35,631 nt of DNA from Nannochloropsis salina CCMP1776 (taxonomy: Eukaryota > Sar > Eustigmatophyceae > Eustigmatales > Monodopsidaceae): positions 2,103-37,733 of the forward strand of contig SDOX01000080.1 of assembly GCA_004565275.1 (NCBI GenBank). Reading direction: 5' to 3'. This document shows positions 749 through 34,243 of the stretch, piece after piece. The translations under genes were made by a program, and so were the position numbers. Numbering within the stretch: position 1 is the stretch's first letter; each line of letters opens with the position of its first letter. The notes under the pieces were generated by a model, which was not told the origin of the DNA, did no database searches, and worked only from the letters and a program-made list of their open reading frames with translations.

Positions 749-3349
749 TTAGATTCCAGTTTTGTAGATGAAAATGTCATTGCTACCAGCAGACGTGAGG
801 GCGGTGTTGTCTACTGTCATGCTCCCTTGGAAACTACCGGTAGTGTAGGAGCTGCCTAATGCATCCACAGCAATGCCTCTTCCCAAGTCAGTACTGCTTC
901 CTCCGAGGCTCGTAGCCGAGACAGGACTGCCGCTGGACTCCAGCTGGATGATGAATATGTCAGTGCCACCAGCAGACGTGAGGGTGGTGCTGCCTACTGT
1001 CATGCTCCCTTGGAAACTACCGGTAGTGTAGGAGCTGCCTGATGCATCCACGGCAATGGCATATCCAATGTCAAAACTGGTTCCTCGGAAGCTTGTAGCC
1101 CAGACAGGACTGCCGGCGGAGTCCAGCTTGATGATGAATATGTCAGTGCCACCAGCGGACGTGAGGGTGGTGCTGCCTACTGTCATGCTCCCTTGGAATT
1201 CACCGGAAGTGTAGGAGCTGCCTGATGCATCCACAGCAATGGCTCTTCCAACGTCATTAATTGTTGCTCCGAAGCTCGTAGCCCAGACAGGACTGCCGCT
1301 GGAGTCCAGCTTGATGATGAATATGTCAGTGTTAGCAACAGACGTGAGAGTGGTGCTGCCTACTGTCATGCTCCCTCGGAATTCACCGGTAGTGTAGGAG
1401 CTGCCTGATGCATCCACAGCAATGCCTCTTCCAATGTCATTACCGATTCCTCCGAAGCTCCTAGCCCAGACAGGACTGCCGCTGGAGTCCAGCTTGATGA
1501 TGAATATGTCAAAGAGACCAGCAGACGTGAGGGTGGTGTTGCCTACTGTCATGCTCTTTTCGAAATTACCGGTAGTGTAGGAGCTGCCTGATGCATCCAC
1601 AGCAATGGCTCTTCCGTCGTCAATACTGGTTCCTCCGAAGCTCGTAGCCCAGACAGGACTGCCGCTGGAGTCCAGCTTGATGATGAATATGTCAGTGCCA
1701 CCAGCAGACGTGAGGGTGGTGTTGCCTACTGTCATGCTCCCTCGGAAATTACCGGTAGTGTAGGAGCTGCCTGATGCATCCACGGCAATGGCAAATCCAA
1801 TGTCATTACTGGTTCCTCCGAAGCTCGTAGCCCAGACAGGACTGCCGCTGGAGTCCAGCTTGATGATGAATATGTCAGTGCTACCAGGAGACGTGAGGGT
1901 GGTGCTGCCTACTGTCATGCTCCCTTGGAAACTACCGGTAGTGTAGGAGCTGCCTGATGCATCCACAGCAATGGCATATCCAATGTCACTCTCAGTTCCT
2001 CCGAAGCTCGTAGCCCAAGAAGGTGCTTGGGTAGGCGTACGAGTCGGTCCTGGAGTAGGCGACGCTGTGGGTGTCGGTGTTGGGGGAGTTGTTGGAGTCG
2101 TTGAAGGTGCTTGGGTAGGCGTACGAGTCGGTCCTGGAGGAGGCGACGCTGTAGGTGTCGGTGTTGGGGGAGTTGTTGGAGTCGTTGAAGGTGCTTGGGT
2201 AGGCGTACGAGTCGGTCCTGGAGTAGGCGACGCTGTAGGTGTCGGTGTTGGGGGAGTTGTTGGAGTCGTTGAAGGTGCTTGGGTAGGGGTACGAGTCGGT
2301 CCTGGAGGAGGCGACGCTGTAGGTGTCGGTGTTGGGGGAGTTGTTGGAGTCGTTGAAGGTGCTTGGGTAGGCGTACGAGTCGGTCCTGGAGTAGGCGTTG
2401 CTGTAGGTGTCGGCGGTGGCGGAGCCGTTGGTGGCGCTGTAGCAGGAGGAATGGAGGTTGGAGGAAGCGTTCTGGGTAAGAGCGCTTCGTACACGTTGTA
2501 ATCAGGATCGACGATGAGGGGTGTGCACACCCCGGCGCAGCAGAAGCACTGGCTGGTCACGGTATTCCAGCTGAAGAGGAATGGTACTTCCTCGCCCCCG
2601 TTCAATGAGCAGTATTCATAGCAAGCCTCCGGGGTGTTGATCGATTGCAGCTGTCGATCTTCAGGATGGTAGAGGGCGATGATGCCTTCATGCCTATTGA
2701 TTCCAGTGTGCAGCGAAAGACGATTGTTCTCGAAGGGGGCTAGCCGCTCCCCTTGAGAGAAGCGCAAGCCTTCACCAAAGAGCACAAAAGGCTGTGTGGG
2801 GTTGACAGTAGGAGCTGGAGTGGGCGCGCACGTCGCGTCTTTGTTGCGTTTCAAGTATTGCACTATTACGATGGCGGGGTTGCCCAGCGGCGTCATGCAC
2901 GAGGTGTCTGTAGCATTCATTAGGTAAGCGAAGCCGTCCACCGCGAGCGTCTCAGGGGCACACTGGTCGGCCTTCACCTTGACGCGAAAGCGGCGTTTGC
3001 CCCCCTTGCGTTTGGTGAAAGCGAGACCCTGCCAGGAAATAGCTGTCACTCCATCCGCATCCTCAACAATTTTCGGCGGTGTATAGGGCTCTGAGGACGG
3101 ACGCATTGCTGTTCGCTCAACCGATAGCCCGTCCGGCAGGTTCAACTGAAACTCCACGTTGTCCACGGGATCTTTGCTCCTCAGCGTGACGGTGATCTTA
3201 GCCATTCCCTTGCCCGCTACGATCCCACGCCGAGGATTTGGCTTAACATTGGCCGTCAGAGAAAGCCGGGGACACCCTTGAGAGACGGTGGTGAAAATGC
3301 TTGCAAAGCCCAGGAGAGCGACAAAGAGAACGCAAGAGAAATCTTTCAT
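749..3349 (-). CDS. Secreted SBBP-repeat surface protein with WSC-like segment
   Basis: A single uninterrupted reading frame of 866 residues from the Met codon at 3347-3349. That start is preferred because it opens directly on a signal peptide ([19 protein letters not shown]); an in-frame ATG at 3425-3427 would add 26 residues. Domains in order: signal peptide; an Ig/DUF11-like beta segment (about residues 30-160); a Cys-rich segment with spaced Cys (CYEYC, CFCC), resembling a WSC carbohydrate-binding module; a Thr/Pro-rich linker of 28-residue repeats; seven 61-residue repeats of the [21 protein letters not shown] type, matching the SBBP beta-propeller family, the last cut short. No C-terminal anchor is visible. 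Likely exported to wall or surface; ligand unknown. SBBP repeats are mainly bacterial, so transfer is possible. Domain names are from recognition, not a search. Confidence 0.85.
752..2011 (-). repeat. Seven coding SBBP repeats of 183 bp
   Basis: Units recur every 183 bp (for example, the ACAGGACTGCC word at 920 and again at 1103) and stay in frame. The first six are nearly identical at both DNA and protein level, which points to recent amplification or gene conversion. The final unit, at 752-910, is the most diverged and lacks its last few residues. Confidence 0.9.
2021..2440 (-). repeat. Coding minisatellite, 84-bp unit, five copies
   Basis: The Thr/Pro linker is built from 84-bp units (28 residues) at about 2021, 2105, 2189, 2273 and 2357. 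They alternate at one position (GAGTAGG versus GAGGAGG, giving SPTPG versus SPPPG), so the array probably grew by duplicating a 168-bp dimer. The length is probably variable between strains. Confidence 0.88.
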
Positions 3350-3719
3350 TTTTGGATGCGTGGATTTGTGCTTGAGTATGGACGCGTATGGATTGACAGG
3401 TCGACCTGTAAGAAAGTGTGCGATCATCACCCCATTATAAATAAATCAAATGGGATACAGCTATCTGCAATGTCTCATGAAGACTTTGTAGGTCTCATAG
3501 ATGACTACACCATGTCAAGAATGTCTGTATCCCTTGGTTCCGTTTACGTCCTCGGGATTCAGGCCAGGATCTCATTCCGAACCAATGTGCTACTGCTATG
3601 ATTTCGTGGGTGGACCTCAGCAGACAATGTAGAAGGCAAGCGAGAAAAATAAAGCATGAGCAGTGCACAGATATTTGCGGGTAAGGAAAGCGGTAACCCG
3701 TCAAAGTATAGGCACGAGC
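3350..3719. other. Spacer upstream of SBBP gene
   Basis: Presumed 5' flank and promoter of the minus-strand gene starting at 3349. Short open frames cross it on both strands, but none has domain-like content. No clear core promoter motif could be picked out. Confidence 0.4.
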
Positions 3720-7084: not shown

Positions 7085-7203
7085 ACTAACCATAACCATA
7101 ACCATAACCATAACCATAACCATAACCATAACCATAACCATAACCATAACCATAACCATAACCATAACCATAACCATAACCATAACCATAACCATAACCA
7201 TAA
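7085..7203. repeat. Perfect CCATAA hexamer array, about 19.5 units
   Basis: A homogeneous run of AACCAT units without any visible substitution. The unit differs from the telomere repeat CCCTAA by one base. It is followed at once by duplicon B. The frames through it (Val-Met, His-Asn, Ile-Thr dipeptides) are artefacts of the repeat. Confidence 0.95.
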
Positions 7204-12026: not shown

Positions 12027-12066
12027 AACCCTAACCCTAACCCTAACCCTAACCCTTACCCTAACA
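12027..12066. repeat. Interstitial telomere tract inside a satellite core
   Basis: About six CCCTAA units (one reads CCCTTA) interrupt a satellite core. Left flank AGACACGAGAG (12014-12024) and right flank AGACGCGAGAT (12066-12076) are copies of the same core arm, so the tract is bounded by an 11-bp imperfect direct repeat. This looks like an insertion at a break rather than a decayed end. Confidence 0.85.
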
Positions 12067-19333: not shown

Positions 19334-20128
19334 TCAAGCCTCCAGCCTGACCAGGTCGAACTCGATGTTGATGACACCTTTCGCCACGAGGCGCTCCACC
19401 CGCATCACCACGTCGCAGACATTCCCCACCAGCAGTCCTTCCAAGGACATGGCCTTGAGCTCCTCCAATGTCTTGAACGTCAGCTCCGCCGCATCGTCCC
19501 CTGCGCGCGCCCGGTCCATGGCTCCGGTGGTGATCCAGGCCGCCTGGTGCGTGATCACGTAATGGAAGAGGATCCCCCGGGCCCCGTCCTCCCGCCTGTA
19601 GATGGCGTCGGTGGTGCATACCGCGTGCGGAAAAAAGCGGAGATCCTCCTTGGAAAGACTGGTCTCCTCTCTGGCCTCGCGCGCGGCGGCCAGAAGGGTC
19701 TCCTCCCCGAGCTCCACGCTACCCCCCGGCAGGCTCCACTTCCCTTTTCCGGGCTCTTTGCTGCGCTTCACTACGCAATAACGGGTGGTCTGAGGCCAAT
19801 ATGGAGTGGCATGTGTCGGAATGCGGAAGACGAATGGATCAGAGGGTAGCGATATGGTAGGAGAGGACGGGGTCGACAGGAAATCGCGACCCCGTCTTCC
19901 GCTGACACGTTCTTCGAGGGACATGACTCCAGAATCTCGGCTATCAGACAGCTGTCACAAGCGTCCAAACCAAACAAGAGGTAAAAAGCCAGCGACCAGA
20001 TACCCACCGGTCCTCTATTTCCCCTTCCCCTCCTTCCCTACCTTCTCAAAGGCGGAGGGTCTCGTGGCAATGGTGACGGCCACCGCGGCGCGAGCGTGCA
20101 GCGGATATGCATTTACATTTGTTTTTTC

Positions 20129-21487: not shown

Positions 21488-24306
21488 CTACGCTTCCCCT
21501 GACCCTTCTACCTCCCCCCCTTCGCTGTTGAACGTCCACACTTCTTCCCATCGGCCTGTCACAGTCGCTGCACCTAAAGCTGCCGCTATAAGGGACGGCA
21601 CGATGTATAGTAACGCTGGCTGGCCCCGATGCATGAGAATGTTCGCGGAAAATGTGAGGAGAAGTCCGAGAGCGTACCCTCCCATGCCGGCCGCAAAGAA
21701 GGTGTTCTTGGTGCCTAAACCGTCCAGACCTGTAGAACATAGTGGAAATAGAGCGTGCGTGTATAAAGCTCGCGAGATCAGAACGCGTAGACGAGAAAGG
21801 TGTCGATCTGACGGAAAGCAGAAGGGGCCGAGACACTAGTTCGTAAGGCAGAACTTGTTAAACCGAGGAGATCGTGCCAAAAGCCTTTGCTTCCTGTCGA
21901 TTCTGTCCACTGCCCTCCCGTCATCCCACCTTCGTCGATGCGCTTGAGAAGACCGACGAAGAGGCCCGGTACTACGATGTCGCCGAGTCCCAGGATGGAG
22001 AAGGGGTACTGGCCGGGGGCCGTGGCCGCCTGAAGGACCAAGGGGAGAGGGCAGAATGGGTGGGGAGCACGAAGGGAAGGGATGAGTTGACTGCGAGTAG
22101 GGGCAGGGAGAGAAGAGCGCGGTCGAACGCGAGAAACGCGACTGGAAGCGAGGAGGATATGGAGACGTAATGCCCTCTTTGTTCGGGCGGCGACCCTCCC
22201 TTCTCACCGCCGCCCGCGGGGACAGCAGCTTGACAGGCCCCTCCAGGCTGGTAGCGACGCTCTCCATGACGCCTCCGGGGGAAAAGAAAACAAAGTAGAT
22301 GTCGTAAAGGAAGAGCCCCGTCAGGAAGATGAGCGCCGGCTTCAGGGACTTGATCGGGATGGAGGCCTGTGGAAGACAAGAGCTGGTGAGGGGGAGAAGC
22401 GGGGCAAGAAGAGGTAGTGGGAAGGACGCACCTGCGCCTGAAGGGCAATGCCGCTGGTGATGAAGTTGGCCGCGAGGAGGGCGCTGATGGCCCCGAGAAA
22501 GACGGCGCCGGAGGCTGAGGATAGTGGGAGGGCGGGAGGGAGGGAGGGAGGGAGCAGCAGGGCGCGTGAGAAGTGAAAAGTGTCGTGGCAACAGCTCCCT
22601 CGGACCCCAAATCCTCCCTTTCTCCCCGCCTACGGCCTCCCCCCATCCAATCCTCACCTCCGCCGCTTGCCCCGGCCGCCGCTACCGCCGCCGCCGGCCC
22701 CCACAGGTAGGTGGCGCAGACCCCCCCCGAGAGCAGCGTCGCGGCCAGCTTCAAGCCGTCGAGCTCGCCCTCGTCGGGGTCTCGCAAGGGCGGGAAGGAG
22801 GAAGAGGAGGCGGGAGGGGAAGGAGGGGTAGGGGCGGGCGAGGAGAAGGGGCCGCGGCGGGCGGGGATCGGTTTGGGGGGGGGGGCGTAGAAGGACTGGA
22901 TAGAGCCGCCGAGCCCCAGGGCCAGCAGGGTGGAGATGAGCACGTCGCGCAGGCAGTAGCCTCCGAAGAAGGTGGTCATGAGCTGTGCCGAGGGAGGGAG
23001 GGAGGGAAGGAGGGGAGATGGGTGGAGGGGAAGGGAGCGATGGGGTGTGAGGGAGGGGGAAGCGAGGGGGGAGCATGGACACGGCACCTGGTAGACAGTG
23101 GCGATGTCGAATTGGTTCTTGAGGAGGTAGTACGTCCCGAAGAGGCTGAAGCTGGCCGCGATGGGGGCGGCGAAGGCGTTGCGGGTGGTGACAGCCTGGG
23201 CGAGGGGGGGGAGGGGAGTAGTCAGAGGAGGGTGAGGAGGAAGAAGGCAAGGAGGGGCAGAGGTCGGAGGGGAGGTAGGACATGAGTTAAGATGAGATAG
23301 AAGAAATGCCAGTCTTCGGGTTAGGCTTAGAGCTACGGCGGCGAGTGAGGGAAAGGGCAGAGAAGAGACAGAGGAAGCCCTCGGGGAGGCACTTCCTGAG
23401 CCTTCCTCCCTCCCTCTCTTCTTCCCGCCCCCTCCCCTCCTTCGCTTCCTCCACCCGCTACCCCGACCTGGAAAATCTCCCCCGCTCGAGCCACGGCGCT
23501 GCTCCTCTTGGCGCCCAAATACACGCAGGTGCAGGCCGTCAGCCAGAAGAATAGGAAGTTGCCTCCGACGAGCCGTGGGGGGGGGGGGGGGAAATGGCAT
23601 GGGCCGGGGGTTCGTGCACTGCCCGGCGAAGATTGCACCACTGTCGTGCAATATTTCAGGTACTACCATCGTCCCTCCTCTTCAAGGGTCTCTTTCCCGA
23701 TGCCTGCGGCCCACTCGACCTCCCTCCCCCCCGCCCCCTCCACTCACCCGCCCGCCAGCACAGGGATGGCCTGGACGCCGATCAGGAACAGGTACACGGG
23801 CCAGTCTTCCTGAAGAGCTTGCGCAGCCAGCACCAGGCGTTTGTCCAGTATCTTTTGTAACCGTATGGCTTCTTTCTCATCGTCGCTCATTTCCTCCTCC
23901 TCTTCCGCCTGGGGAGAGCATACGCAAGATGTCAGGTGATGCAGGTCGTGAACAGGGAACTCAACCCCATCCCGTACTGTCTCTCTTTGCAAGCACGTAC
24001 CACGTCCCTCTCCTCTGTCTGCCGCTGCCAAAAGGCGAGGGGGCGAGCCCGTGCGCGATGGGGCTGTAGGGGCGCGAGCTGGTGCTTACGTCGTAAGTAG
24101 AGGGCGTTAAAAGAGAGAGAACTTGCGGCCAGGACGGGTGAAAGCGGCGAGGAGGAGGCAGAAGGGAGTGTGAAGGTCGATGTTGAAGGTGGCAGGATAA
24201 AGGCCGAATGGAGGGATGCGCTAGGAAGCAGCATATTGGGAGCCTGAAAGGAGCGGAGGAGGTGCCCGTGTCGAAGCTGGCTGACGGGACGAAAAGGAAG
24301 ACACAT
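21488..24306 (-). CDS. Signal peptide peptidase-type intramembrane aspartyl protease, nine exons
   Basis: Exons 24306-24001, 23908-23748, 23618-23468, 23195-23088, 22982-22658, 22514-22432, 22366-22208, 22029-21930 and 21729-21488 join in phase (544 residues). Introns are 65-272 bp, GT-AG. SPP/presenilin-fold signatures are all present: the catalytic YD (GLFLYDIYFVFFSPGGVM, exon 7), the catalytic GxGD (ILGLGDIVVPGLFVGLL, exon 8) and the PAL motif (QPALLYIVPS, exon 9). Several upstream hydrophobic segments match SPP membrane helices (VYLFLIGVQAIPVLAGG, NFLFFWLTACTCVYLGAKRS, SFSLFGTYYLLK). Role: cleavage of signal-peptide remnants or other type II membrane segments in the ER or a related membrane. 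Oddities: a Pro/Ser-rich insertion in exon 5 and a Pro run in exon 3 encoded by a C homopolymer near 23578-23591. Start is uncertain: ATG 24306 or 24234 (520 residues). The exon 3 donor could be 6 bp further on. Confidence 0.88.
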
Positions 24307-27500: not shown

Positions 27501-30500
27501 GCCGCCTCCTCTCCCTCCCCCCCCTCCTCCGCCCCTCCCTCCGGCCCGCCCTCCCTCCAGGCCGCCTTCGAGGAGGTGGTCAATGCCTGGGCCCCGCGCC
27601 CCTCAGCCCTCTCGCTTTCCGCCGCCGCACAGGCAGACCCCGGCCATACGAGGGTGAGTGCGACCGCCCTTCGCCTCCCGGGAAACCAGCCATTGCCCTC
27701 CTTCCCCCTCACCCTCCTTCCCGCCCTCCCCCCAGGCCTCTCGCGCCTTCACCCGCGGCCTCAGCTTCATGCGCCGACACCCCTCCCTCCCCTCGGCCCA
27801 TGCAGACAGGCCCCGGTCTGTCCGGCTCAAACGCCTCGTCAGCAAGTGGCGACTCCAGCTAGGGCAGGTGCGTTCCGATCCCTTCACGGTCATGAGGGAG
27901 GCGGGGGGACGGGACGCGCGCGAGCGATCCGATCCGTTCAATACTCTCCCGAAAAGGCCACAACCGTCCTCGTCGCCTCAGCTGGCTCCTTGCTCTCCCT
28001 CTCTCCCTCCCGCCTCCCCCCTTTCCCCCAGCCTCCCGCCTCCACTTTCGCCGCGGCCGCCCAAGCTGCCGTCCAGTCTGGCCCGGCTCCAGCCCCCTCC
28101 ACGTCTTCTCCCGCCCCTCCCTCCGCCCCTTCTTCCGCCCCTCCCTCCTCGTCGCCCCTGGCCCACCCCCCTCCAGTCTTCCCCATGCTCCACCAGGCCT
28201 CTTTGCGCCTGCACTCCGCCCTCTACGCCTGTGGAGAAGATGGGGAAGGGGGGATAAGGACCGATAGGGCGCGACCGGAGAGGGAGGGCGCCTTGCCTCC
28301 CAACACAGTGCGGCCCGCGCCCCGCCCCTCCTTCCCTCCTCGGCAGCACCCTTACTCCCTCCTCCTGTCCTCCCTCCTCGAGAAGCAGGGCCTGGCCCAC
28401 CCCGCCCTCGCCGCCCTCCTCGCCCCTTCCCCTTCCTTCCCTCCCTCCCTCCCTCCCTCCCTCGTCCCCACCCCCTCCCTCACCCTGAACCGGCCCCGGG
28501 TGCGTCGACTGCTGCGCTTGGCCTTTCGACAGGAGCTGGGTAAGAGGTCGCGAGGGAGGAAGGGAGGGAGGGAGGGAGGGAGGGAGGGAGAGAGGGAGGG
28601 AGGGAGGGGCAAGGCCGGGCCGTGAGGTCCAGGAAGAGGAGGAAGAGCACCTGAGCCTCCTCCCTCACTTCTTCCCCCCCCTCCTCACCCCATTTTCCCC
28701 CTCATCTCCCACCCCCTTCCCTTCAGCCACAGCCGCATCCTGGCGGGAGGCCCTGCACTCGCTGACCCTGGGGCTGGGCGGGGGCTGGGTGGGGTTGGAG
28801 GCTCTCAAGGTGTTCGCACTAGGCGCTGCGGCCTGGCACCTGCAGCGACAGCAACTCGAGCAGCACGCGCAGCACGCAGGAACTGCAGAGGTACTGGGGG
28901 AGGCGGGGAAGGAGGACGGGCCGGAGGGACACGGCCCGCGCCCAGCCCTCCCGGGGGAAGGAGGGGGAGGCCCGGGGGGAGGTCGGGGCGGGGGAGAAAG
29001 CCGCAGGAGGCGCTTCTTCTTCCAGGTCATGGGCCGTCAGAGCTCGTCTTCGCCCGGCCTGAGCCTTCTGCGTCGGACCGGCTCCTCCCTCCCGACCTCG
29101 GCCCCGCCCTCGCCCTCGTCCACGCTGGGACTCCCCTTCGCGCCTTACACCAGCCCCCCTCCCAAGGCCGCCTACAGCCGCCTGCCCCCTGCCCCCCCCT
29201 CTTCCAAAAAACACAAGCATCACTCCCACAGCGCCTTGTGTCTTCTCAATGGTTCGTTGTCCACCCTTCTCCCCGTCAGTGCGCTCTGCTTCGCCTCTTT
29301 CGCCCGCTTCTCCCTCACCCTCACCCTAACCCTAAATTTAACCCTAACCCTACCCCCTCCCCTTCCAGACAAGGCCCGCTGGACGCGCCTGCCCAACCCC
29401 TCCCAGAGTCCCTTGGAGCTCGTGGCCGACCTGCTCGATCGCCTCCTTGCCGTCTGCAAGACTCACGCTGTCCCCCTCCCGGACGTTGGTGAGTCGCTCC
29501 CTCCCTTGCTTCCTCCCTCCTTTTCGTTCCCGACCCCTCGGGCCGCGTCTGTCGGGAATGGACAATATACTCTGACGCAGAATATCCCCTGCTCAAGGGT
29601 TTTGAAACGTGTCTTTTTCCTCCATGCTCCTCTCTCCCTGTATCTTTCTTTTGCCGTCCCTATCTCCTTCCCTTGGCTTCCCTCTCTTCCCCCTTCCACC
29701 CTCCCTCACTTGCCCCTCTCCCTTCCCACATGTAGGCCCCAAGGTCTTCTCTCTGGGAGAGGTGGAGCTTGCCGCCATCAAGGCTTCGGCTGCCTTCTCC
29801 CTCTTCGAAGCCTTCACCTCCCAGGTACCTTCCTCTCCTAAACCCTCGTTCTCCCCCCAGACACAAAAGAGTCCGGAGTCCTCACCGCATTCGCCTTTCT
29901 CTCTCCCGACCCTCCTCTACTTTTAGCTCCTCCTCGTGGATTTGGAGACGTCCTGCGACATGCAATCGTACGACCTGCTGGTAAGGGGGGACGAGGGGAG
30001 ACGGGCGCGGTGAAGGTACTCGCCGCGGCCTAGGGTCTCTGATCGCCCCTCCCCCTCTTTAATCATGCTGTAACCCTAACCCTAGCCCTAACCCTCCCTC
30101 ATGCCCCCGGCACAGGAAGGAGAAGATCCCGAGGACGAGGACGCCCGCCTCGCCTTCCTCCTCACGCTCCACAACCTCCTCTCCCTGCACGGCCTCATCG
30201 ACCAGGGCCCCTCCCTTTCGGTATCCCCCAAACACCGGGAGTCTCCCTCGGCGCTCTTCCAGGAACGGCAGCGGAGCGTGCGCTACCGACTTGGAGGACA
30301 AGAAGGAGGACGGGAAGCAGGGCGAGAGGGAGGAATGACGCTGACGCTCTCCGCCGCCTTCATCGAGCAGCGGCTCCTGCGGAGGGAAGCCTCGAGCGGC
30401 GGCTTTCGGCTTTTCCCCGCCTCCATCAGCCGCTACTTTCTCCCTTCATCCTCCTCCTTCCCCTCCTCCACCTTTCCTGTCTCCTCTCCCTCCCCCTCCC

Positions 30501-31153
30501 CTTCGCATCCCTCCAGCCAACCTTCCCTCGACGAGGACGTGGGCGATCCCGCCCGGGCGCCTTCTCCATCCCCCTTTCCCGTCTCTTCCTCCTCGTCACC
30601 CAAGCAGCTCGCTCTCCGTCAAGCCCAGCCCCTCCACTACTTCGGCCTTGCCTACGGCACTGCGTCCTCCCCTCCCATCCGCGCCTACCGCCACCCGTCC
30701 TCCCTCCGTCCTTCCCTCCGAGAACAGGCCAGGACCTACCTCCTTCGCCACGTCCACGTCCGGAGGGAGGGAGGGAGGGAGGGCGGCAGGAAGATGTTGG
30801 TTCTCCCCGAGTTGTTGCAGCAGCACTGGCAGGTCTTCGGGACTGATCTGGCCTCTGCCTTGTGGAGTGTGTGGGCATTGGCGGAGGAGGGTCTGAAGCG
30901 GGGGAAGGAGGAAGGATGGAGCAAGGGGGGGCGACGGAGGGACGCGGACGAGCGTCGGCGTGAATGGCAGGCGTGGGAGGTGCTGAAGGCAGAGGTCGAG
31001 GAAATTTTGGCGGGAGAAGTGGAAGGAGAGGGGATGGGGGGGGGCAACAGGCGGAAGCAGGGGGAGGGGAAGGAAAAACAAGGCAAGAAAGCGCTATGGA
31101 AGCGTGTGGAGTTCGTTCCGCACGACTATGGGCAGTGGCAGATCTGGCTATAG
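24582..31153 (+). CDS. DENN-PH-DUF547 multidomain protein, about 13 or more exons
   Basis: Start ATG 24582 (or 24327). Exon 1 ends at 25316; later exons: 25430-25883, 25967-about 26593, 27004-about 27275, 27561-27653, 27736-27867, 28197-28539, 28727-28890, 29026-29251, 29369-29488, 29736-29824, 29927-29980, 30116-31153. From 27561 on, all phases agree. Exons 1-2 carry a DENN module: uDENN (MHVIVVTDGDGRRHYGFLAK), cDENN (LLFERKVILTT, ILPLPWAHACIPSLPPGLDF, VPFPILAGL) and a dDENN-like part (GWVHLDVDTG). Exons 3-4 hold a PH-like domain ending HYRLCATSTRERQAWIKTF. The last exons match DUF547 (LAFLLTLHNLLSLHGLIDQG, YFGLAYGTASSPPIRAY, terminal HDYGQWQIWL). DENN proteins are Rab exchange factors; DUF547 function is unknown. 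The frame shifts by one in a CCCTCC tract near 26340-26390, and 27275-27560 is unresolved, so two adjacent genes cannot be excluded. Confidence 0.68.
28437..28612. repeat. Opposed TCCC and GGGA arrays around a splice donor
   Basis: A TCCC run at about 28437-28462 (inside exon 28197-28539) faces a GGGA run at about 28557-28612 in the next intron. The two are complementary and enclose the donor at 28540, so the transcript could fold back across it. Confidence 0.75.
29317..29353 (+). repeat. Telomere-like repeats in an intron, 15 bp before the acceptor
   Basis: CCCTAA-type hexamers (TCACCCTAACCCTAAATTTA then ACCCTAACCCTACC) end about 15 bases before the 3' splice site at 29368. They take the place of the polypyrimidine tract in the 29252-29368 intron. 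Confidence 0.85.
30071..30095 (+). repeat. Second intronic telomere-like tract
   Basis: About four CCCTAA units (one CCCTAG) in the 29981-30115 intron, 20 bases before its acceptor. Confidence 0.85.
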
Positions 31154-31616: not shown

Positions 31617-34243
31617 TTACAGCTTCAGCTTTTTCTGCGACTTCTCCCTCCCCTCCCACCGTCCCCCATTCCCCGCCTCCCTTCCTTCCCCGTCGTGAGG
31701 GAGCGAGGAAGAAGCCTCGCACCCGCGTCTGTTGATGGCTCTGTTGATCACGTCCAGGTCCTCGCACCCGCGTCTGTTGATGGCTCTGTTGATCAGGTCC
31801 AGGTCCTGGGCCGGAGACTGTTGAGGAAGGGAGGGAGGGAGAGACGCGCGGGGGGACAAGACACGTGAGGGAAAGGAGGGCCGGGGGTAAGGACGAAAGA
31901 AAGAGAGGCAAGAGGGGGAAGGAGGGAAGAAGGGAGGGGAGCTGGCTGAGGAGGAGGGAGGAGGGCGGGCCGCACCTCGCCAAAGGCGTAGAGCACCCGG
32001 GTACGGGGCGTGAGCTTGGGCATAGCCTCTTGATAGGGATAGGGGGGCTGGGGAAGGAGGGAGGGAGGGAGGGAGGGAGGGGAAGAGTGAAGCAGTGGCA
32101 GCGGTCGGATTCGCCCATGGACAGGATGCTAGGAAATCCGAGCAAACGTGATTTTATCCATGGTCGAGACTACGTACTACGTCAACATCGTGTCCCAAGC
32201 CCGATTCCTCTCAGCGCTACCTCCATACCTGCAAAGGGCCGCGCGCATTTCGCGGCGGACTCATCCCTCCCTCCCCCTCCCCTTCCTCCCCATGGTACGG
32301 CTGTGGAGGTGGCGTCCGAGAGACGTCCTCCCCGCCCGCCCTCGGGGAGGGAAGGGAGGAAGGGAAGGAGGGGGAGAAGGAAGGGAGAGGGCGTGCTGGA
32401 TGTGCGGCGGCATGGAGGGAGGAAGGGAGGGCGGGGCGGAAGGGCGAGAGGGTGGAAGGAGGGGGGGAGGAGGAGGAGGAGGGAGGGGGGGGGCACCATG
32501 CTGGGTCCGAGGAGGCCTCCTGTGATGCTGGTGGTGGTCAGGTACACGTTCGAGTGGCGGATGCGCCGCTGAGGAGATCGGATCGGCGAGGGATGGGGCA
32601 GGGCCGAGATGGCCGGGGAGGAGGCTGGAAGGGAGAGAGGGAGGGAGGGAGTGAGTGAGTGAGAGAGTGAGTGAGTGAGTGAGTGAGTGAGAGAGTGAGT
32701 GAGTGAGTGAGTGAGTGAGTGAGTGAGTGAGTGAGTGGGTGAGTGAAGGAAGGGATAAAGGCAATTCAAGAAGCAAGCGGATAATTCATGCAGTGATGAG
32801 TCATTACGGGGGATGAGGAGACGAGTGGGAGAGGCCAAGCGAACTCACTTGCTCCAGTTCCCCTCCTGCCGTCCCCTCCCCCTCCTCCTTGTCCTCCCCT
32901 CCTCCTTCCTCCTCGCGGCGGTCTCGGGGGGGGGGACATGGGCGCCATCGATTTTGCCGTTGACGACGGCGACCCATCCTCCTTCCCTCCCTCCCTCCCT
33001 CCCTCCCTCCCTCCCTCCCTCCTTCCCTCCTGCCCGCCCACTCTCTGCGAGGCGGCATCTGGAGGGAAGGAGAAGTGAAGGATGTAGTGCTTGAGGGAGG
33101 GAAGGAAGAGGAGGTTGTAGTATCGGATAATGTCTCCTCGCCGGTCGTTGGGCAACGGGATATCCTGAGGGAGGGAGGGAGGGAGGGAGGGAGGGAGGGA
33201 GGGAGGGAGGGAGGGAGGGAGGGAGGGTAAGCAAGCCGACCGGGTCACGGGCAACATTGGCCCTCAGTGCGAGGCGCCAGATCCGTGTCACATTCCTTCC
33301 CCCCGCCCCCTCTTCCCTGCCCTCCCTCTCTGCGCACCGGTGTCGATGCAGCCAGAGCTGGCGGTACTTGAAGTAGACGGAGGAGTAATGCGTGAAGTCT
33401 TGCCTGTCCGTGGGAGGGAGCGGCGTCGTGTGTCAAAGAGGGCCCCTGGGCCCACGGACAAGACGGGGACCCGTCCCTCCCTCCCTCCCTCCCTCCCTCC
33501 CTCCCTCCCTCCCTCCCTCCCTCCCTCCCTACCGCAATCCGCCCGCCAGGGCCTGCAGCTCCTCGGAGAGTCCCGGGAGCCGCTGAGAGAGGAGGGTCAG
33601 GTGGGAGAGGAACTCGTCCATCCGCTCCAGGCCCGTCGCCTGCGGGTATTTGCACATTATCAAAAGCACGCGCCGGTGAATGTGAAAATTGCTTTCTGAT
33701 GAACCAACGCTGGCCTTCAATCGTGCAGTCGACTCGCCATTTCCCCCCCAATCCACCCTCCCCTCCTCCTCCTCTTCCTCTTCCTCTTCACATCCCTCTC
33801 AAGCTTGCCACCCTCGCTTTGGCACGCTCCTCTTCCCGCCCTTCCATACCTTCAGCACATCGCCCAGCGTCCTTCCTCCCGGCATGTTGTGCTCGTAAAG
33901 CGCCATGAAGATGCTGCACGCCGCCCACACCCACGGCCCGGGGCGATGGGCGTCGGGAGGGATCCCCAGGGCCAAGACGGCGGTCAAGTGCTGCATGAAA
34001 ACACCAATCATCCCAGACAAGATATAAGACAGGCCATAGGAAAGAAATTGGTGAGCGACGCTTCATCTTTTTGTGTTTCTATGGAAGCTTTCTCAAAGAA
34101 GTAAAATACCCTCCTCCTGGAACACTTCCGCACGCCCCTTTCTTCACCTCGGTCGCCCTTGTTTTGACATTGTTTGGTAGGTCCAGGGCAGCTACCACCT
34201 CTTCAAAGCATAACTGTGCCACGGGATCGATGTTTGCTGCCAT
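31617..34243 (-). CDS. Retinoblastoma-related protein lacking the A/B pocket
   Basis: Exons 34243-34148, 33990-33850, 33639-33533, 33403-33338, 33295-33241, 33164-32849, 32624-32497, 32047-31976 and 31817-31617 join in phase (393 residues). N-terminal part (MAANIDPVAQLCFEEVVAAL, WVWAACSIFMALYEHN, DFTHYSSVYFKYRQLW) follows the order of the RB N-terminal cyclin-like domain. Exon 6 holds the last pocket-B helix (GDIIRYYNLLFLPSLKHYIL), exon 7 the RHSNVYL motif, exon 8 KLTPRTRVLYAFGE and exon 9 LDLINRAINRR, all in the order seen in the human RB C-terminus. Normal RBRs are roughly 900-1,200 residues and bind E2F and LxCxE proteins through the pocket, to restrain S-phase entry. Here some 500 residues between exons 5 and 6 are missing, at a GAGG array. 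Exon 5 has weak splice sites. Either a true pocketless form or a collapsed assembly. Confidence 0.72.
31727..31806 (-). repeat. 45-bp in-frame duplication in RBR C-terminus
   Basis: The block encoding DLDLINRAINRRGCE occurs twice in succession (offset 45 bp, near-identical; the copies read DLDL and DLDV). It duplicates the conserved C-terminal helix of the RB family. Confidence 0.9.
32649..32743. repeat. GAGT tetranucleotide microsatellite in an RBR intron
   Basis: About 23 GAGT units with occasional GAGA, within the intron between exons 6 and 7. Purine-rich on the plus strand, C/T-rich on the transcript strand. Confidence 0.95.
32981..33027. repeat. TCCC array inside RBR exon 6
   Basis: About eleven TCCC units on the plus strand, read in frame on the minus strand as Arg-Glu-Gly-Gly repeats. 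Exon 6 stays open through it. Confidence 0.85.
33166..33228. repeat. GGGA array at RBR exon 5/6 junction
   Basis: About fifteen GGGA units on the plus strand fill nearly all of the short intron at the point where the RBR pocket would be expected. It is complementary to the arrays at 32981-33027 and 33474-33531. Confidence 0.9.
33474..33531. repeat. TCCC array in RBR intron 3
   Basis: About fourteen perfect TCCC units on the plus strand, ending next to the splice donor of exon 3 (33532). Confidence 0.92.

Follow-up and report, generated by a model that had tools for sequence, protein, structure and literature searches.

The interval 31617-34243 on the minus strand of the window (the whole stretch of 35,631 nucleotides that was analysed) is identified by its two ends, and by the partners predicted in the same genome, as a putative retinoblastoma (RB)-family gene, which as assembled fails the formal pocket test. 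The gap in this gene is real in the assembled sequence. We consider it somewhat more probable than otherwise that the gene, from a small eukaryote, is of the ordinary RB-family (RBR) type and that its middle has been lost, in assembly rather than in life. The features of the gene are listed below.

34148..34243, minus strand: exon 1, an open frame with donor gtgaag and phase 0 out; its start codon is at 34243
33850..33990, minus strand: exon 2, RB-N start, an open frame with acceptor tgcag and donor gtatgg; the DUF3452 match starts at the exon end
33533..33639, minus strand: exon 3, RB-N, phase 2 out, spanned by the DUF3452 match
33338..33403, minus strand: exon 4, last recognisable RB-N piece, ends in phase 2; DUF3452 match to position 68
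33337, minus strand: exon 4 donor, gtgcgc, score 6.29
33165..33337, minus strand: apparent intron 4, 173 bases, proposed to be two introns fused into one; the 5' end is in phase 2 and the 3' end in phase 0
33167..33227, minus strand: CCCT array (GAGG on the plus strand) at the 3' end of intron 4, 15.2 copies with 100% matches (Tandem Repeats Finder)
32849..33164, minus strand: exon 5, last helix of pocket B followed by a low-complexity linker; needs phase 0 in
32497..32624, minus strand: exon 6 (RHSNVYL), in phase with exon 5, 3' end uncertain
31976..32047, minus strand: exon 7, RbC (LTPRTRVLYAFGE), match to 5tuv_C, E 0.15
31617..31817, minus strand: exon 8, RbC helix twice and the stop codon, match to 5tuv_C

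Three independent matches to one family, colinear on one strand within 2.6 kb, were obtained from these exons. None of the RB-type family matches reaches its curated cut-off and each is weak alone; the RB identity is assigned because the three share one strand and follow the order known from RB proteins. The DUF3452 (RB-N) profile was matched with an E value of 0.063, 0.031, 0.014 or 0.0062, varying with the piece queried, and over its first half only (the alignment starts at profile position 10 or 11 and ends at 68-75, of 135), with scores of 13.4-16.6 bits where the cut-off is 26.3; it was the sole family listed for all three further RB-N pieces (E 0.031, 0.014 and 0.0062). When exon 5 alone was compared with 24,736 families, only RB_B was listed, matched over its last 20 positions (125-144 of 144) with E 0.018 and 15.4 bits, the cut-off being 26.9. 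Against the PDB, exons 7-8 matched the p107 C-terminal chain 5tuv_C (RbC, the C-terminal E2F-DP contact). The LTPR, LY.F, SP and IN spacing of this p107 domain (5tuv chain C) is shared by the predicted protein, but the match reaches an E value of 0.15 only, and the matching helix occurs twice here, as a 45-base tandem duplication at 31715-31807 (2.1 copies, 97% matches) that reads DLDLINRAINRRGCE DLDVINRAINRRGCE. The same order of RB-N (DUF3452), RB_B end and RbC can be observed in RB1, p107, p130, plant RBR and algal MAT3. The original prediction of RB-like pieces colinear on the minus strand is thus borne out by the DUF3452, RB_B and 5tuv_C matches.

No other RB-family gene was found in the 26.5-Mb genome, and all eight protein matches lie on the window's contig. 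The six DNA matches of the locus comprise itself, three repeats on the same contig and two stretches of about 40 bases (in contigs C45 and C48); no relatives were confirmed in viral_contigs and genome_contigs. That this is not an RB gene, the resemblances having arisen by chance in GC-rich, low-complexity sequence, would agree with the failure of every match to reach its curated cut-off, with the absence of RB chains among the PDB matches of the RB-N piece (only two O-methyltransferases, E 0.34 and 0.39) and with the absence of any Pfam family for the piece covering exons 6-8. Such an origin is nevertheless highly improbable, given that RB_B alone out of all families was listed for exon 5, that DUF3452 alone was listed for the RB-N pieces, and that the pieces stand in the order of RB proteins.

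Like the RB-family pocket proteins, the assembled gene is accompanied in its genome by E2F and DP; unlike them, it has neither the second half of RB-N nor RB_A (196 positions; no Pfam match in the gene) nor positions 1-124 of RB_B, and both binding clefts are missing with these. The missing length is presumably about 500 residues or more, the linker lengths being estimates. A pocket cannot fit between exons 4 and 5, because the apparent intron is only 173 bases long, and no pocket-like context was found in a motif scan of the whole contig (60,917 bases, N blocks included). The absence of a pocket between preserved ends, as originally predicted, is therefore upheld by the profile coverage and by the intron length. 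The predicted loss of about 500 residues holds for its size, but not for its restriction to the A/B pocket, since half of RB-N is absent as well. Reading exon 4 through into the array, without an intron, raised the DUF3452 score only from 14.4 to 15.5 bits, with the match ending at position 75; this reading, though conceivable, was not adopted.

The two ends had also been described as kept in phase, and this is not supported at the natural splice sites. The last codon of exon 4 is cut after its second base (CACCG/gtgcgc, phase 2), whereas exon 5 starts with a whole codon (ctcag/GATATC, phase 0) and its frame reads RRGDIIRYYN; the donor at 33337 and the acceptor at 33164 are thus in conflict, and the in-phase donors are far worse. 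Donors were scored with a small matrix, built from seven donors (five of the RB gene and two of a cyclin gene). The natural exon 4 donor, with its score of 6.29, is in the top 3.5% of the 1714 GT sites on the strand, and the four phase-0 donors near exon 4 scored -8.77, -4.18, -0.92 and -0.58. From the start of exon 4 to the array there are seven GT sites, six of them scored with the final matrix and the phase-1 site at 33248 (-2.02) with an earlier one. By this seven-donor matrix the phase-0 donors are weak, and usable splice sites do not join the RB ends in one frame; natural splicing of exon 4 to exon 5 would give a frameshift and a product of 270 residues from which RbC is lost. A homopolymer error is an unlikely cause of the phase conflict, because the longest single-base run has two bases in exon 4 and three within the initial 60 bases of exon 5. 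Counting against the phase test, the exon 5 donor gtgagt scored only 0.11 in leave-out scoring. At the exon 6-7 joint, the one donor that keeps the frame scored -0.59, a stronger donor (10.5) being out of phase, and the 3' half of the gene model is less sure.

The gap had been placed exactly at a GGGA array. Its location at the junction is confirmed; a special significance of the array is not, as it is an ordinary CCCT tract before an acceptor. Such CCCT-rich tracts precede the acceptor in four of the six other introns of the RB gene (that of intron 3 being only short), so that the array at the junction is unremarkable by itself, and both of the cyclin-gene introns that were read end in one as well. 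Stretches of exactly 100 N were found at two distinct places, in C55 and at C87:50608-50707 (the window's contig), both GGGA-rich, in a scan of 25 loci (90,597 bases, overlaps included). No N run was found at the exon 4/5 junction itself or in 16 cyclin loci. On its two sides the window is bordered by longer blocks of N (2102 and 1037 bases); these may stand for withheld sequence and were not counted as assembly gaps. Three of the four contigs listed are longer than 1 Mb, and the window contains an assembled array of 1.25 kb (Tandem Repeats Finder); the large contigs and this array indicate that the reads were probably long, in which case a 61-base tract should not collapse easily.

Both E2F and DP were found in the genome, where the E2F_TDP profile matches at four places; the values are 1.6e-25 for E2F (with CC-MB at 7.8e-27) and 1.1e-27 for DP, and one further frame carries two E2F DNA-binding domains. 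Human E2F1 docks in the RB pocket with FGLEEGEGIRDLF. The E2F locus ends with FGMTDAEGISEMW, which resembles this docking tail; the end lies in another frame than the rest of E2F, after G runs, and reads DPVFQFGMTDAEGISEMWLTEES followed by a stop. This frame change is located near runs of 10 G and 8 G in gene L002 (G000:C15:717979-721176, minus strand, approximately positions 2083-2475 of the reverse complement), and may be a sequencing error. The docking-tail pattern, which was composed after the motif had been seen, occurs once in 395,844 six-frame residues (partly overlapping), and its six-residue core once more. The tail gave no Pfam family and no PDB match at E values up to 10, among chains of at least 20 residues. 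Binding of the E2F tail to the A/B pocket is described in excerpts of PMC11931385, the LxCxE cleft is named in those of PMC2082274 as one of the features that the family has conserved best, and human E2F6, whose RB-binding domain is lost, does not bind RB according to those of PMC3224931. The kept tail suggests that a pocket is still present or disappeared only very recently.

The rest of the genome had been proposed as a place to look for RB_A and RB_B domains. This search was run and gave no matches, with the Pfam RB_A profile at E values up to 0.001 and the RB_B and DUF3452 profiles at E values up to 10, but its sensitivity was low: the genome searches with these three profiles show little, because they missed the window's own exons as well. 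Control profiles on the same genome gave four matches for E2F_TDP and 16 for Cyclin_N. The p107 query and the consensus pocket query had no matches in the genome, and the single candidate of a plant-type pocket query (E 0.289) was rejected, as it lies on the strand opposite to a frame that we take to be a guanylate kinase. The patterns RHLDQ and KVIExF occur at five and three places in the genome, respectively, none of the five and none of the three with an RB-like context by eye. LxCxE motifs in cyclins were also considered as proof of a pocket and rejected: there are 18 occurrences in 285,250 six-frame residues (partly overlapping loci), and the two cyclins concerned, L027 with the motif in its open frame and C12 with the motif in an open frame upstream, read like A/B-type cyclins by eye, so that they prove no pocket. 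The cyclin of G000:C12 (loci L030 and L031) is B-type-like, and LECME is found upstream of its cyclin-box exons, in an open frame that is very acidic.

Taking these observations together, we infer that tracts were joined, that assembly was the cause, that pocket exons exist, and that the protein works as other RB proteins do. On this view, the intron that follows exon 4 and the one that precedes exon 5 would have enclosed the exons coding for the rest of RB-N, for pocket A and for most of pocket B. Two CCCT-rich intron ends would have been fused into one tract, most likely during assembly, with the intervening exons dropped. Such a fusion would leave a single hybrid intron of normal size and signals with discordant phases. 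An intron of normal appearance but mismatched phase, the gaps at GGGA-rich arrays and the E2F tail motif are all in keeping with a CCCT tract at which sequence was deleted or collapsed. Loss in assembly also agrees with the colinear weak RB matches in a single genomic copy, with the strong phase 2 donor (6.29) facing a phase 0 acceptor, with CCCT-rich intron ends being common and one of the 100-N gaps lying on the same contig, and with the presence of DP and of an E2F locus ending in a docking-like tail. It is opposed by the probable length of the reads, through which a short tract should survive assembly, by the failure to find the pocket anywhere in the assembly, though the searches were insensitive, by the lack of N runs at the junction and in the 16 cyclin loci, and by the E2F motif, which is in a different frame from the rest of E2F and is named by no library. 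In the organism, the RB pocket would most likely hold the E2F tail, as in other RB proteins, while RbC would touch E2F-DP and phosphorylation would release the partners.

As the place of joining, the junction, with its hybrid intron and mismatched phase, has the same anatomy whether the joining was done by a computer or by a cell. We therefore also weighed a true deletion in the strain or species, in which recombination at CCCT tracts removed the middle exons and left a broken RB gene making at most an N-terminal fragment. It shares this anatomy with a loss in assembly, and it suits the probably long-read contigs, the 270-residue product without RbC and the open frames retained by both recognisable halves; but the flanking RB pieces look intact, so that it would have to be very recent, and the E2F tail is kept, and we regard it as a doubtful though not a slight possibility. 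A working pocketless RB, in which half of RB-N, the pocket-B tail and RbC are joined in frame and act on E2F-DP through RbC alone, seems quite unlikely. Recognisable RB sequence is kept at both ends, in-phase donors do exist, the exon 6-7 joint likewise needs a donor just as weak to keep its frame, and the tandem doubling of the RbC helix is the one feature that would fit; yet a weak exon 4 donor would be needed (at best -0.58, against 6.29), RB-N would be broken in mid-domain and the E2F tail would be left without a partner. Just as improbable is its elaboration, in which E2F-DP would be held by RbC alone, the helix recently doubled in compensation and the E2F tail a relic. As for a pocket encoded elsewhere in the genome, in a separate gene or in a misplaced piece of the RB gene, the searches were too insensitive to count heavily, the RB_B profile having missed even exon 5, but two Pfam models, three protein queries and two patterns revealed none in a genome in which E2F_TDP and Cyclin_N were readily matched, and we consider it very unlikely. 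Of the original prediction, the RB identity and the missing pocket stand; among its three readings, deletion or collapse fits, and a true pocketless RB is weakened by the phase mismatch at the natural sites.

RB is a tumour-suppressor family found from plants to animals, and the pocket is viewed as its working core; a pocketless RB, if true, would contradict this. Loss in assembly, the reading preferred here, would instead be a warning that similar arrays in this genome may have cost other genes their exons, and it is unsafe to claim the loss of a domain on the strength of the assembly alone. Short-tract deletions and microsatellite assembly gaps resemble the present case in the junction within a CCCT tract and in the 100-N gaps at GGGA-rich arrays, but differ from it in that the RB junction has no N run. 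RB, E2F and DP are reported across eukaryotes in excerpts of PMC4862756, and in a diatom, as unpublished data, in those of PMC2872877. In the literature on Nannochloropsis retinoblastoma (including an excerpt of PMC10487731), on stramenopile RB loss and on pocket-lacking RB, no title on a pocketless RB was found.

Telomere-like arrays (TAACCC, TAACCA and AACCCT) are present in the window at 1-190, 7087-7203 and 12027-12065, so that the contig looks subtelomeric. An open frame of 898 residues at 749-3445 (minus strand) matches SBBP beta-propeller repeats (E 5.7e-16) and overlies a 183-base tandem repeat at 767-2017. The minus strand also carries a frame with a NUDIX domain (19334-19954, E 2.5e-14) and, at 21836-22681, an exon of a signal peptide peptidase (Peptidase_A22B, E 1.6e-7). 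A frame with a DUF547 match at 30092-31153 (plus strand, E 4.4e-9) adjoins the RB gene in convergent orientation.
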